From Dromiciops gliroides (lineage: Eukaryota > Chordata > Mammalia > Microbiotheria > Microbiotheriidae): 64,000 bases of DNA. Shown here piece after piece: positions 8,600 through 61,889 of the stretch. Below the pieces are notes generated by a model. The model made no database searches, was not told the origin of the DNA, and saw only the letters and a list, made by a program, of their open reading frames with translations. The stretch is from positions 265,188,441 to 265,252,440 of the forward strand of contig NC_057862.1 in the NCBI RefSeq assembly GCF_019393635.1, written 5' to 3'. Within the stretch, counting starts at the first letter, position 1; every line of letters starts with the position of its first letter. Made by a program: the position numbers and the translations under genes.

Positions 8600-9625
8600 T
8601 TTTTAAAATAACAGTTTTACCTAGCTAACGTATTTATTCAATGGCATCCCAATTAAATTACTAAAAAAAAATTATCTTACTGAGTTAGGAAAAAAATAAC
8701 TACGGATTAGAGAGATGCAAATTAAAACAACTCTGAGGTACCACCTAACACCTATCAGATTGGCTAATATGACAAAAAAGGAAAATAATAAATGTTGGAG
8801 AAGCTGTGGAAAAATTGGAACACTAATGCATTGTTGGTGGAGCTGTGAACTAATCCAACCAGTCTGGAGAGCAATTTGGAATTATGCCCAAAGGGCTATA
8901 AAGCTGTGTGTACCCTTTGACCCAGCAATACCACTTTTGGGTCTTTTCCCCAAAGAGATCATAAAAAAGGGAAAAGGACCCACATGTACAAAAATATTTA
9001 TAGCTGCTCTTTTTGTGGTGGCAAGGAATTGGAAATTGAGGGGCAGCCCATCAATTGGGGAATGGCTGAACAAGTTGTGGTATATGAATGTAACGGAATT
9101 CTATTGTGCTGTAAGAAATGATGAGCAGGTGGAGTTCAGAGAAACCTTGAAGGACTTGCATGAACTGATTATGAGTGAGATGAGCAGGACCAGAAGAACA
9201 TTATACACAGTATCATCAACATTATGTGTTGATCAACTGTGATAGACAAGATTCTTCTCAACAATCCAATGGAACAAGAAAGTTCCAAAGGACTCATGAT
9301 GGAAAAGGCTCTCCAAATCCAGAAAAAAAAAAAAAAAGGAACTGTGGCATATGGATGCTGATTGGACCATACTATTTCTTTTGTTTTTGCTGCTGTTGGT
9401 TTTCTGATTTGAGGTTTTTCCTTTGTGCTCTGATTCTTCTCATGTAACATGACTAATGCAGAAATATGTTTAATGCTATTATGTATATATCAGATTGCCT
9501 GCTGTCTAGGGGAGGGGGGAAGGGAGGGAGAAAAATTTGAAATTGGAAATCTTATATAAACAAATGTTGAAAACTATTTCTACATGTAACTGGAAAATAA
9601 TAAAATACTTTTATTTTTTAAAAAA
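8600..9625 (+). mobile_element. L1 ORF2 C-terminus and 3'-UTR
   Basis: A 175-codon open frame (8715-9242) is the L1 ORF2 C-terminal region: [67 protein letters not shown]. The 3'-UTR follows to an AATAAAATAC end near 9610. It is the longest surviving piece of L1 ORF2 in the window. The stretch before 8700 is ORF2-like but not contiguous with it. Confidence 0.93.
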
Positions 9626-9639
9626 TAAGAAGAAGATGG

Positions 9640-11044: not shown

Positions 11045-11965
11045 CACCTGAAAAAAAGGGAATGGCTGAACAAGTTGTGGCACATGAATGTATTGTAATA
11101 CTATTGTGCTATAAGAAATGATGAGTATTACAAAACAGAGAACAAAAGAAAAGCAACAAGGAAGCAAAGAAAAGCTGGCAGATTTTAAAAGTGTGTAGTA
11201 TTTTCTTGAAGTATGTTTCCTTGAAATGGAAATCTATTGTTTTATATTGAATTCTCTCTTATGTTCTGCTTATGTACATGGAAACTTTTTTTTTTTCTGT
11301 TCTCATTTTCTATTTAAGTTTAACATTTGGGGGCAGCTAGGTGGCGCAGTGGATAAAGCATGGGGCCTGGAGGCGGGAGGACCTGAGTTCAAATCCAGCC
11401 TCAGACACTTAACACTTGCTAACTGTGTGACCCTAGGCAAGTCACCTAACCCCAATTGCCTTACCAAAAAAAAATTTAAAAACTTAAAAAAAAAAAGAAA
11501 TGATGAGCATACAGATTTAGAAAAACCTGGAAAGACTTACATGAACTGATGCTGAGTAAAGTGAGTAGAACAGGAGAAAACAGCAATATTATACAAAGAT
11601 CAAATATGATAGACTTAGCACTTTTTGCAATACAATGATACAAAACAATTCCCAAAGACTCATGATGGAAAATGCTATCCATCCACATCTAGAGAAAGAA
11701 CCATGGAGTTTGAATGCAGATGGAGGCATACTGTGTTCACTTTTTTTTTCTTTCTTGTGCTTTTTTTTCCTTTTGTTCTGATACTTCTTTCACAACATGA
11801 TTAATGTGGAAACAAGTTTAACATGATTGTACATGTATAACCTATATCAGATTGCTTGCTGTTTTGGAAAGGGGAGGGAGAAAAATTTGGAATTCAAAAT
11901 CTTACAAAAATGCATGTTGAAAACTATCTTTTCATGTCATTGAAAAAAATAAAATATTATTAAGG
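11045..11965 (+). mobile_element. L1 3' end, interrupted
   Basis: GGAATGGCTGAACAAGTTGTGG at the left, and from 11492 the terminal ORF2 and 3'-UTR through AATAAAATATT near 11955. Bases 11125-11330 are not L1-like. Confidence 0.8.
11330..11475 (+). mobile_element. WSINE1-like SINE
   Basis: Complete head and CORE; tail of A with T interruptions. No clear target duplication. Confidence 0.9.
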
Positions 11966-36061: not shown

Positions 36062-36594
36062 AAGTATTAAGACATTTCTCAAGTCTTAGTTTGCCCAGGG
36101 GACTAAGGGCTCTGATTAATGTCATTTCCTCATTTCCTAAGTAAAAAGCAGCCATGCTTTATTTTTATTTTATTTTTCTGGGGGTTGGGGGTTCTCAGAG
36201 GTTTGGCTGATAGATCTAGATGGGAGTTGCTAGTAAGACTTTTCCTTGTTGAATACCCTTCTCCTCTTGTTCTTACAGTGTCTCATTTTATTCCAATATA
36301 AAGCCTAAACTACCCAGGGGCTGGCCTGAGTCAGAACCAGACTAGAACAGTACCCTTATGAGTCCTTTGTGTTTTAAGTCTTTCTTTTGTAATGGAGGAA
36401 ATAAATATCTGTCTTCCTGATCTACTTTGTTCACTGAAAGGGAAGCTAATAATCTCTTTTGGGAGATTCTAGACATGAGCCATAACTAAGCCTTAAATGT
36501 TCTCTGGGACTGAGGAAATGGAGAGAGACAGGACAAGGGCAGGGAACATAAAGAGCAAGACGTAACAAGAAAAAAAATCCCAAGGTCTTTCTTT

Positions 36595-36763
36595 CTTTCT
36601 TTCTTTCTTTTTTTTTTTGTGAGGTAATGAGGGTTAAGTGACTTGCCCAGGGTCACACAGCTAGTAAGTGTCAAGTGTCTGAGGCCAAATTTGAACTCAG
36701 GTCCTCCTGAATTCAGGGCCAGTGCTCTATCCACTGTGCCACCTAGCTGCCCGCCCCCCCCCC
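36595..36763 (-). mobile_element. WSINE1-like SINE with (CTTT)n at the tail
   Basis: AAGGTCTTTCTTT flanks both ends. A C-run sits at the head end. Confidence 0.92.
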
Positions 36764-42640: not shown

Positions 42641-42705
42641 TGTAAATCTATTTTTTTCAATGCAAGAAACATTTATTTTATTTTTTCCAGTTACATGTAA
42701 GGGTA

Positions 42706-43070
42706 GTGTGATGGTTAAAAATCTAATGAGTGGTCACCTTAAATTAGAAACGTATAGCACCAATCTTTGGGCATTAAGTATTTAAAAAGTATATTAGGGG
42801 TTAGTAAAGAGAACACGTGGAGAAAGAAATAAAAGACCCTCGCTACCTGTACCTGCAGCCACTCCTCTCACCACCTCCAATGGAAAAGCGTAATCTCCTG
42901 GAAAACTATGATCCCCCATTCTCTTGAAATGAAGGCCTGCCCAGGCCTGGTCCCTACACACACAGCTCCAAGCTGATTGGCTGGTAGCAATGATTGACAT
43001 GACTTACAGGCATTTCTATGAAGAAATGTAATCACATGCTTTTTCCTCAGGGTGGCGCTCTGGTTCTCAC
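42706..43070 (-). mobile_element. Solo LTR (TGTGA...TCACA), about 365 bp
   Basis: The ends are perfect 5-bp inverted repeats and L1 3'-UTR sequence continues on both sides. On the minus strand its 3' part resembles the LTR at 57389-57915 (TTTACTAA, AATGCCCAAA, TGGTGCTATA). The target duplication is not clear. Confidence 0.75.
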
Positions 43071-43090
43071 AGTTTTCAACATTCATTTTC

Positions 43091-43392
43091 TTTCTTTCTT
43101 TTCTTTCTTTCTTTCTTTCTTTCTTTTTAAATAAAAGTATTTTATTATTTTCCAGTTACATGTAGAAATAGTTTTCAACATTTGTTTATATAAGATTTCC
43201 AATTTCAAATTTTTCTTCCTCCCTCCCCTCCCTCCCCCCCTCCCCTAGACATCAGGCAATCTGATATAGGTTATATATACATAATAACATTAAACATATT
43301 TCTTCATTAGTCATGTTATACGAGAAGGATCAGAGCACAAAGGAAAAACCTCAAGTCAGAAAACCAATAGCATCAAAAACAAAAGAAATAGT
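43091..43392 (-). mobile_element. L1 3'-UTR part of a U6-L1 chimera
   Basis: The minus strand runs from the TACTATTTCTTTTG point of the L1 3'-UTR to AATAAAATAC and an (AAAG)n tail. It matches the 3'-UTR of the copy ending at 9625. Confidence 0.92.
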
Positions 43393-43442
43393 AAAACTAT
43401 GGAACGCTTCAGGAATTTGCATGTCATCCTTGTGCAGGGGCC

Positions 43443-43473
<31 letters not shown>

Positions 43474-43500
43474 CGTATATGTGCTGCCAAAGCGAGCACT
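43393..43500 (-). pseudogene. U6 snRNA retrocopy, 5' part of a U6-L1 chimera
   Basis: The minus strand carries a full-length U6: GTGCTCGCTTTGGCAGCAC at the 5' end, then the ACATAC-like box (here ACATATACG), GAACGATACAGAGAAGATTA and CATGGCCCCTGC, ending at GTTCCATAG. About five or six differences from the mammalian U6 consensus are seen by eye. It is joined at its U-rich 3' end to an L1 3'-UTR in the same orientation, so it is a retrocopy. There is no sign of a U6 promoter; upstream is L1 sequence. Confidence 0.93.
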
Positions 43501-43589
43501 CAACATTCATTTTCATAAGATTTTGAGTTCCAAATTGTTCTCCCTCCCTTCCTTTCCTCCCCCTTCCACAAGACAGCAACCAATCTTGA

Positions 43590-44364
43590 TGTAGGATGCA
43601 AAAAGGGGTTAATAGAAAAATCTAAGACCCAAGCTTTAATTCAGATATTAGCTCCAAAAGGGAGTTAGAGCCCAGTTAATGGATAACTTACAAGTCAGGA
43701 TGCTAGGTTATCCTACCCACAGTGATCAGTACCCATAATGGCACCATAAAGGGTCAGGTCATATAACAATTAGACTAAATGACAGCCTATAGAAATTTTT
43801 TTTTTTTTTTAGTGAGGCAATTGGGGTTAAGTGACTTGCCCAGGGTCACACAGCTAGTAAGTGTCTGAGGCCGGATTTGAACTCAGGACCTCCTGAATCC
43901 AGGGCCGGTGCTCTATCCACTGCGCCATCTAGCTGCCCCTGACAGCCTATAGAAATTCTAAAAGAAAAACGAAGGTATTTTGAAACTAGCCATGGGAATC
44001 AGAAAGAGACATGTAGAAAAGGCCAAATTTGTCCCCAGATTCACCTTATGACATGTAAACCCCCAAAACACACCTCCAAAGAAAAAGGTACCTGCCTCAG
44101 GGGTTGGCTTAGGACCCCAGAAACTCCAAATTAGGATAAACCCTCCCCTGTACCTCCCCAAGGTAGAGATTATTATAATGAGACTGACAATCAATTTATC
44201 TATACTATAAATATAACTGTCTTTCCTTTCCTTATTTGAGAGATACCTTTCCACTTTTCTGATCACTCACAGCATTGCAATAAAACTTGGGAAACTGAGT
44301 CACTTAGTCTTGTAATTGTTTTGGGATGACTCATGATCAATTTGACCCCAAATTCCATCCCACA
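43590..44364 (+). mobile_element. Solo LTR, with a SINE inside
   Basis: Ends TGTAGGAT and CCCACA; TATAAATATAAC near 44205 and AATAAAACTTGG near 44278 give orientation. Without the SINE it is about 630 bp. L1 flanks read AATCTTGA and AATCTGA, a likely short target duplication. Same family as 29020-29720. Confidence 0.8.
43798..43939 (-). mobile_element. WSINE1-like SINE
   Basis: TGACAGCCTATAGAAATT at 43780-43797 and 43940-43957, inside the solo LTR. Confidence 0.95.
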
Positions 44365-48469: not shown

Positions 48470-49745
48470 ACCATCAGGTGAGAGGGCTGAACAGCTGGCC
48501 TGGGGGGAGGGGTGGAAAACACATGGGTGTCTATGGGACCTGAGGAGAAGTTCGGATATCCCACCCTAGCAGGGAACCAGGAAGAAATCTTGAGTGGCAG
48601 GAAGCCCAGGTTGGGGAAGGGTGCAGGCTCATCAAAGCCAGAAACCACCACAGCACTCTGCTGGCTGGTTAACTAACAAGTTGGCTTGAGGTTACCTTCA
48701 GACCAGAGAACAGGCCAGGCAAGAGGAAAAACCTGCCCTCCCTCAAACCAAAACACCTGGGACCCTCTAAAGCTTGACACAGTGTAGCTTTCAAGTAGGG
48801 CCCCACTGTAAGAGGGAGCTAAAAGTCAAGTAAAAAATGGCAAGATGAGCAAGCAAAGAAAGTTGAGAACTACCAAAAGTTTCTTTAGTGACAAGGAAGA
48901 TCGAGGTGCACCCTCAGATGAGGATAACAACCTCAGGGCCCCTACATCCAAAGCTTCCAAGAAAAATATGAATTGGTCTCAGGCCATGGAAGCACTCAAA
49001 ATGGACTTTGAAGAGAAAGTAGGAAAGATAGAAGGAAGATTTAGAGAGGTGGAAGAAAGAATGGAAAGAGAAATGAGAGCAATGCAGGAGAGCTATGAGA
49101 AAAAAGTCAACAGCTTGAAAAGCCAAATGGAAAAAGAGATAAAAAAGCTGTCTGATGAAAATTATTGCCTAAGAACTAGGATTGAACCAATGGAAGCTAG
49201 TGACTTTATGAGAAACCAAGACACAGTAAAGCAAATCCAAATGAATTAAAAAAATAGAGGGCAATATGAAATATCTCCTTGGAAAAACAACTGACCTGGA
49301 AAATAGATCCAGGAGAGGTAATTTGAAAATCATTGGACTACCTGAAAGCCATTACCAAAATAAGAGTTTAGACACCATCCTCCAAGAGATTGTGAGGGAA
49401 AATTGCCCTGATATTCTTGAAGCAGAAGGTAAAATAGAAATTGAAAGAATCCACCGATCACCTCCTGAAAGAGATCCCAAAAGGAAAACTCCCAGGAATA
49501 TTATCGCCAAATTCCAGAGCTCCCAGGTCAAGGAGAAAATATTGCAAGCTGCCAAAAAGAAAGAATTCAAGTACTGTGGAGCCCCAGTCAGGATAGCACA
49601 AAATCTAGCAGCTTCTACATTAAAGGACCAGAGGGCATGGAATATGATATTCCAGAGGGCAAAGGAACTGGGGCTATAGCCAAGAATCACATACCCAGCA
49701 AAACTGAACATAATCTTTCAGGGGAAAAAACAAGAATTCAGTGAA
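48470..49745 (+). mobile_element. L1 5'-UTR and nearly complete ORF1
   Basis: The 5'-UTR leads to ORF1 at 48845. The first open segment has 134 codons (48845-49249): MSKQRKLRTTKSFFSDKED, a charged coiled coil with EVEERMEREMRAMQE, then KEIKKLSDENYCLRTRIEPM. After one frame break, 137 codons follow (49266-49679) holding the RRM-like core GNLKIIGLPE and the C-terminal domain (IERIHRSPPERDPKRKTPRN, AKELGL). L1 ORF1p is an RNA-binding trimeric chaperone. One break makes this copy non-coding. The L1 stops near 49745 without ORF2. Confidence 0.92.
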
Positions 49746-57388: not shown

Positions 57389-57915
57389 TGTGAGAAAAAA
57401 ATGGGTTTTGGGGATCCTAGAGACCCCCCACCCCCACCCCAGGGCCTAACTACCTGACCTTTTAAGACCGTCCCAGAGTCAGTCAAGTTGGACCTTGAAC
57501 TGTGAATAGAGACAATAGAGATTAAAACCACACCTACCTGAAAGCCTTTCCCCTTAGAGGATCTGTCCTCTGGACTCTGACCTCAGCACACACTGCTCAT
57601 GGACCACCCTCAAGTCCAGGAAACCAATAGATTGGAATGATGCTAGCCAATTTGCTTGAAGCAGTGTGTAAGGGCTGCCTATCCTCTGGACTGCAGAGAG
57701 CTTACACTCTCTCAGCTCTCTTGGCCTGGGACGCTGAAGGAGGAAGGGACACTGCCCACTCTCTCTCCCCTCTATCCTAGGCATGTAGAACTTCTGAACT
57801 TTCAGAACCATGTGCTCTCTCTTTACTAATATTTAATATGCTTTAATAAATGCGTAATGCCCAAAACTGGTGCTATAGCTTCTAATTTCTAAGTAACAAT
57901 ATATGAGAAACCACA
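57389..57915 (+). mobile_element. Probable endogenous-retrovirus LTR
   Basis: Starts TGTGAGAAA and ends ACCACA, with AATAAA near 57845. The last 130 bp resemble the minus strand of the solo LTR at 42706-43070. No target duplication or partner LTR was found; old. Confidence 0.55.
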
Positions 57916-58549: not shown

Positions 58550-58845
58550 ACTCCCCATTCACTTATTCATTCATTCATTTATTTATCTATTTATTTATTT
58601 AGTCATTCACTCATTTATTTATTTATTTATTCACTCAGTCACCCAGCCATTTATTTATTTGCTCATCCATTTATGTATCTATTCACACATTTATTTATTT
58701 ATTTAACTACTCCATTCATTCATTCATTTAATCTAATTACTTATCTGTTCATTCATTTATTTATTCATTCATTCATTATCTATTTTTTATTTATTTCTAT
58801 CTATTTATTTTTCATTCATTCATTTGTTTGTTTATTTTTTATTTT
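58550..58845 (+). repeat. Degenerate (TTTA/TTCA)n tract
   Basis: About 295 bases of TTTA, TTCA and TCTA units. It gives a 126-codon low-complexity frame that is not a gene. Confidence 0.95.
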
Positions 58846-60276: not shown

Positions 60277-61695
60277 AGAGTAAGTATTAAATAAAGCTTA
60301 AATGTGCTCAAATATTATAAAATTAAAACATTTCTCATCTCTGTTGAACTCTCACTATGCCTTAAGTCTCTAAGTTCTCTCCCATTCTCAAACTAGCCAG
60401 TCTGATAAGATGTAGACAACTTAATTCTTTTTCAAAAAATTGTAATGTTCCTTTTTGATATTTTATTTTTCTCAGTTACACATAAAAACATTTTCAACAT
60501 TCATTTTTTAAAAAATTTAATTCATTTTAAACTTAAATACCAAACAAGAAAAAAGAACATATGCGCATACACAGCAGAACATGAGAGGATTCAATATAAA
60601 AGAATAAATTTCTGTTTCACAAAAACCTATGCACTAAATCTTACATACTGTTTTCCAAGCAACCCAGCTTTTCTGCACTTCCTTTTAGGTTTTCCTTTGT
60701 TCTCTGCTATGTACTTTTTTTCTCCTTCCCTCCCTCCAACCTCACGACCACTCTAGAGAAGACTGACATTAAATGTGAATATATATATAGATGTATATAA
60801 ACATGCACACATATATACATATACACATATACATATATGCATATTTCTATTTGTCATGTCTTTCTCTAGAGGTGGATAACATCTTCCTTCACAGGTCTTT
60901 CATGTTTTTTTAAATCAACCTGCTCATCATTTCTTATATCATAGCAGTATTCCATCACAATCATATCTCCAATTTTCTGCTTTCCTTCTCATCGTGACTA
61001 CATTGATTTTATTTGTACAAGAAAATTTTAATTTAAAATAATTGAAATTATCCATGTTATGCTTCAATAATGTTCTTGCCTTATAATATAGTTTAAATGT
61101 CTGGATTCTTCTTCCTTTACATTAACAATGAATATTTCTCCAATTATTTAAATCTGACTTTATTTGTATAAGGTGTTTTCTGTTTATGTTCATGTAATTT
61201 ATATGTCTATTTTGGCAGGTATTTCATACTTTCTAGTTAGTTTAAATGGTCTAAAATAACACTGAATGATATTGGTGACACAGTGTAGTTTCACTGTTAA
61301 TTGAATCTATTTTAGCTTTAACTTTGAGATCATGATTATTATCTCTGCTTTTTTTTTTTCACAATAAATTCTACTCCAGCCTTTTATTTTATCTCAGCAT
61401 GTATCTCTCCTTTTTATTGTTTCCTGACTTCAGATTTTTAATCCATTCTGCTATCCTTTTCGGTTTTTTTATCCTTTTCTATGTTATTCATCCCATTCAC
61501 ATTTCTAAGTTACAATTACTTATTATCCCTCCATCCTGTTTTTTTTTCACAATCCTTTTCCCCATTTACCCTATTCCTTCTCACTTGTCTAATTTACTTC
61601 TACCCATTATCTTGCCCTCCTAATTCCTTAGTCTACCCATCCCTCTGAGTCCCTCCCTTATCATCTACCCCCACCCTCTACCTTAATCTACCTAG

Positions 61696-61702
<7 letters not shown>

Positions 61703-61742
<40 letters not shown>

Positions 61743-61889
61743 TTTTTTTTTTTGGTGAGGCAATTGGGGTTAAGTGACTTGCTCAGGGTCACACAGCTAG
61801 TGAGTTGTCGAGTGTTTGAGGCTGGATTTGAACACAGGTCCTCCTGACTCCAGGGCTGATGCTCTACCCATGCGCCACCTAGCTGCCCC
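61703..61889 (-). mobile_element. WSINE1-like SINE with (CTTT)n tail
   Basis: ATCTACCTAGCTTTCT at the left and at 61890-61905. The T-side tail has expanded to (CTTT)n. Confidence 0.93.

Follow-up and report, generated by a model that had tools for sequence, protein, structure and literature searches.

General features of the locus

The window, by which we mean the whole stretch of 64,000 nucleotides analysed here, belongs to contig NC_057862.1 of Dromiciops gliroides. Its minus strand carries a chimeric insertion composed, in this order, of one copy of a 15-bp direct repeat, a U6 snRNA retrocopy, part of an L1 3'-UTR, an A-rich tail and the second copy of the repeat (table 1). The L1 part is 5'-truncated, lies directly 3' of U6 and has the same orientation. 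The insertion target is an older L1 3'-UTR fragment, again in the same orientation, which contains both flanks; this point is absent from the first-pass annotation.

Table 1. Features of the chimeric insertion and of the L1 fragment that received it. TSD, target-site duplication.
Feature	Position	Strand	Remarks
TSD copy, U6 (5') side, 15 bp	43500–43514		Identical to 43076–43090; adjoins U6 nucleotide 1 at 43499
U6 snRNA retrocopy, full-length, 107 nt, TTTT at the join	43393–43499	-	RF00026
5'-truncated L1 3'-UTR, directly joined to U6	43129–43392	-	Sister copy at 9370–9631
(AAAG)n A-rich tail of the chimera	43091–43128	-	TRF, period 4, 43087–43126
TSD copy, tail (3') side, 15 bp	43076–43090		Identical to 43500–43514
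Host L1 3'-UTR fragment, upstream part, insertion target	43515–43595	-	Similarity to the inserted L1; joined-flank alignment to the copy at 11871
Host L1 3'-UTR fragment, 3' end	42674–42706	-	Joined-flank alignment
365-bp block with TGTGA...TCACA ends, inside the host L1	42707–43071		Host L1 gapless here once the block is removed

The U6 part

The first-pass annotation had described a full-length U6 on the minus strand, and this is borne out by cmscan, which aligns the copy with the complete model of RF00026 (positions 1–105 of 105; 109.3 bits, E = 1.3e-27). This is the sole match in the window at Rfam gathering scores, and the window hence contains one U6. Compared with human U6, 101 of 107 positions are identical and six differ. 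Four of these six are CpG positions, leaving two differences at 93 non-CpG positions. Four terminal T are retained. The human form ends in five T, the first of which is replaced by G in the present copy.

The full length and the TTTT stop would also be expected of a U6 gene, active or relic, standing beside an unrelated L1. However, U6 is immediately preceded by the 3'-UTR of the host L1, and the six changes in 107 positions relative to human U6 also speak against a gene; we give this explanation practically no credence. The copy is presumably a dead retrocopy without function. It might, instead of being a one-off product, belong to a repeat family headed by U6, a kind of U6-L1 SINE, that expanded in this marsupial lineage. 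The single U6 in the window says nothing either way about such a family, which we regard as very unlikely.

The L1 part and the join

Within the window, the inserted L1 sequence has its closest copy at 9370–9631; in the BLAST alignment 247 of 280 columns are identical and 21 are gapped. This sister copy starts 128 bases beyond the end of an ORF (8700–9242) encoding a match to the C-terminal part of human L1 ORF2p (PDB 8sxt, residues 1099–1270, E = 7.8e-59). A Pfam scan of this ORF returned no family. The identity of the inserted part as an L1 3'-UTR is fixed by the position of its sister copy behind the L1 ORF2 C-terminus. The 5'-truncated L1 3'-UTR in the orientation of U6 and the (AAAG)n tail, both claimed in the first-pass annotation, are thus confirmed by the match to the sister copy and by TRF. 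The join had been placed in the U-rich 3' end of U6, and the U6 TTTT does sit there.

Where the sister copy has GACCATACTATTTC, the chimera has CCATAGTTTTACTATTTC at the join. Homology to L1 starts at TACTATTTC or ACTATTTC, so that the overlap with the U-run of U6 amounts to a single T. An overlap of one nucleotide is compatible with either template switching or ligation and cannot discriminate between the two. The break in the L1 sequence falls on a UpA step and would be in keeping with an origin by RNA cleavage, a single case being no proof. No A-tail lies between U6 and L1.

Target-site duplication

The direct repeat TCAACATTCATTTTC is perfect over 15 bp and ends exactly at U6 nucleotide 1 on one side and at the tail on the other. 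A perfect duplication of 14 bp had been reported in the first-pass annotation; it is indeed perfect, but 15 bp long, the T at 43076 and 43500 having been omitted. If the boundary C is assigned to the tail, the duplication becomes 14 bp, shifted by one base from the one reported.

Within the window, the repeat is the only identical run of at least 12 bp at the spacing of 424. When all 300 spacings from 300 to 599 are considered, the window has 11 runs of at least 14 bp, this repeat included; six of the other 10 were judged by eye to be SINE sequence. The exact 15-mer has no further occurrence on either strand of the window, and near-matches occur at 60494 (one mismatch) and at 11906 (two mismatches, within an L1 copy).

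We also searched for exact repeats of 7–20 bp around U6 alone or L1 alone, at up to 25 bases from the joins, and found none. This indicates that U6 and L1 entered together. Two separate insertions, either of L1 and then of U6 at its 5' edge, or of U6 and then of L1 at the U-run, would be conceivable since separate U6 and L1 retrocopies are both frequent in mammals, and Doucet et al. (2015, PMC4476161) record adjacent, maybe independent insertions of U6atac and Alu without a TSD. Separate events should, however, each leave a duplication and a tail, and the locus has neither an exact 7–20 bp inner duplication within that distance of the joins nor an A-tail separating U6 from L1. A two-event origin is therefore rejected as highly improbable.

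The pre-insertion site would have been nicked at CATTTT/CATAAG or CATTTTC/ATAAG; TTTT is present and the exact position is ambiguous by one base. The site resembles the L1 target motif, quoted as TTTT/A by Doucet et al. (2015, PMC4476161), but the nick is followed by C, or falls after TTTTC, where the consensus has A.

The host L1 and the rebuilt empty site

The upstream host sequence (43500–43595) is 77 per cent identical to the inserted L1 over 97 columns. When the flanks were joined by script and the 365-bp block was removed, the rebuilt site, which carries the 15 bp once, agreed with the L1 copy at 11871 in 72 of 84 positions, both joins being gapless. In BLAST the rebuilt site matched the same copy at 80 of 94 columns; the three gapped columns are not at the joins. 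When wider pieces were compared globally, 92 positions matched, 18 did not and 29 columns were gapped, again clear of the joins, and an ungapped fit extended past the 3' end of the host L1 was poorer (77 of 104 positions). With only the chimera removed, the flanks agree with the 11871 copy in 55 of 63 columns and with the 9370 copy in 70 of 92. The rebuilt flanks can be regarded as an internal empty-site control, paralogous and not orthologous. The joint entry of U6 and L1, as proposed in the first-pass annotation, is supported by this site together with the single TSD bracketing the whole and the lack of exact inner repeats.

The 15-bp repeat sits in an L1 3'-UTR and the inserted L1 has a related stretch; the repeat could accordingly be seen as shared L1 sequence, brought into place by recombination between L1 copies and not by target-site duplication. 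Yet the two 15-bp copies are identical to each other, whereas the inserted L1's own version, TCAACATTTGTTTAT, is different. Recombination also fits poorly with repeat boundaries that coincide precisely with U6 nucleotide 1 and the tail. Finally, the flanks form one continuous L1 once they are joined, and L1–L1 recombination as the source of the repeat is rejected on this ground; we consider its probability negligible.

The 365-bp block interrupts the same host L1 3'-UTR and has no clear target duplication. A 73-column stretch of it matches 57818–57888 at 82 per cent. It is possibly a solo LTR, and is separate from the chimera. We had considered that the host L1 might be 3'-truncated; this was rejected, its 3' end being found beyond the block.

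Divergence and relative age

In a global alignment over all sites, CpG included, the L1 part differs from its sister copy at 10 of 245 positions, with 22 gap columns; in the BLAST alignment 12 of 259 positions differ. If both copies share one source, the divergence of L1 would be about 2 per cent per copy. The non-CpG divergence of U6 is indistinguishable from the halved L1 count (Fisher p = 1.0). When all U6 sites are taken (6/107), U6 appears more diverged than the halved L1 (5/245, Fisher p = 0.10), but its excess over the full pairwise L1 count is not clear (10/245, Fisher p = 0.58). The extra divergence of U6 over all sites is ascribed to CpG decay. Judged from these counts, the divergences of the two parts are compatible.

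A further comparison was provided by a SINE with 43 matches in the 64 kb, of which the 38 longer copies, covering at least 111 query positions, were aligned and five were left out. Their median non-CpG divergence from the majority sequence is 6.5 per cent (range 2.2 to 18.6 per cent), figures that are rough, the majority sequence ignoring subfamilies. Measured against this median, the chimera looks, roughly, younger than most SINE copies.

Other features of the window

We take this SINE to be WSINE1, a CORE-SINE of Australian marsupials. For 27 of the 38 copies a simple pattern sufficed to read a diagnostic stretch, which in 21 of these 27 is 7 nt longer than in the copy at 43796. This fits the 7-nt insert described for WSINE1 types 1a and 1b (PMC3403934). 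The same source gives about 200,000 copies for the whole Tasmanian devil genome, a figure against which the density of the SINE in the 64-kb window seems high. Two (CTTT)n arrays (36586–36618 and 61696–61751) lie at the tail ends of SINE copies (36604 and 61741), resembling the (AAAG)n stretch that ends the chimera. A further 280 bp or so of degenerate TTAT/TTCA tandem repeats occupies 58563–58844.

Of the 20 stop-to-stop ORFs listed, 12 were scanned with Pfam. A family above the cut-off was found in one of the 12, an L1 RBD-like domain at 49245–49679 (PF02994, E = 2.8e-16); one other ORF had three matches, all below the cut-offs. In the region 48812–49679 a pair of ORFs, each in its own frame, share a few bases, and the RBD-like domain is in the second. 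Because of this match to PF02994, the region probably represents a remnant of L1 ORF1 in which the frame is broken. A tRNA scan of the window gave no genes, and an L1 3'-UTR pattern had no matches in a viral contig collection, as expected for viruses.

Formation of the chimera

There is little doubt in our view that one L1 retrotransposition event put the U6-L1 chimera into the older L1 3'-UTR. The anatomy of the insertion, its duplication, the rebuilt empty site and the absence of exact 7–20 bp inner duplications can all be read in the sequence itself, and from them the enzymes and steps of the insertion are deduced. The plus strand would have been nicked by the L1 endonuclease at CATTTT/CATAAG, or a single base further on. 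Reverse transcription, primed on the tail of the L1 RNA, would have copied about 264 nt of the L1 3'-UTR and then crossed the entire U6, from the 3' U-run to nucleotide 1. Joining of the second strand would finally have produced the 15-bp duplication. As to how the two RNAs were joined, we lean slightly towards U6 having been ligated to a broken L1 RNA ahead of reverse transcription; joining by template switching is also quite possible.

Comparison with known U6/L1 chimeras

U6/L1 chimeras were described as template-switching products by Doucet et al. (2015, PMC4476161), whose survey covered 48 vertebrate genomes and found such chimeras in Metatheria. Their table 2 of repeat-associated U6 copies lists two for wallaby, five for opossum and none for Tasmanian devil; for opossum, their text mentions a U6 copy associated with an RTE and another associated with an RTE-type SINE. 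In human, 180 U6/L1 chimeras were counted by Law and Burns (2026, PMC13174262), typically a sense full-length U6 on a truncated L1, with both RNA ligation and template switching left open. Ligation of U6 and LINE-1 RNA is described in a 2026 review (PMC13247085), which cites Moldovan et al. 2019.

The first-pass annotation had presented the locus as the known product, now seen in a marsupial. It is a U6/L1 chimera, but marsupial cases are already in print (PMC4476161). The locus is thus a genuine and ordinary member of a kind already reported for marsupials, and matters little alone; it does offer a clean case of L1 capturing U6 with a built-in empty-site control. The 97.5 per cent U6-identity filter of the survey (Doucet et al. 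2015, PMC4476161) would exclude a copy with 101 of 107 identical positions like the present one. As U6 identity here is below that cut-off, the marsupial-inclusive survey may undercount older chimeras.

Like the chimeras described in human and other placentals (PMC4476161, PMC13174262), the insertion has a sense full-length U6 whose 3' end is joined to a 5'-truncated L1, an A-rich tail, a TSD and a TTTT that makes its target a candidate L1-endonuclease site. Unlike them, it presumably involves an L1 of another lineage, and it has an (AAAG)n tail and an older L1 as its target.
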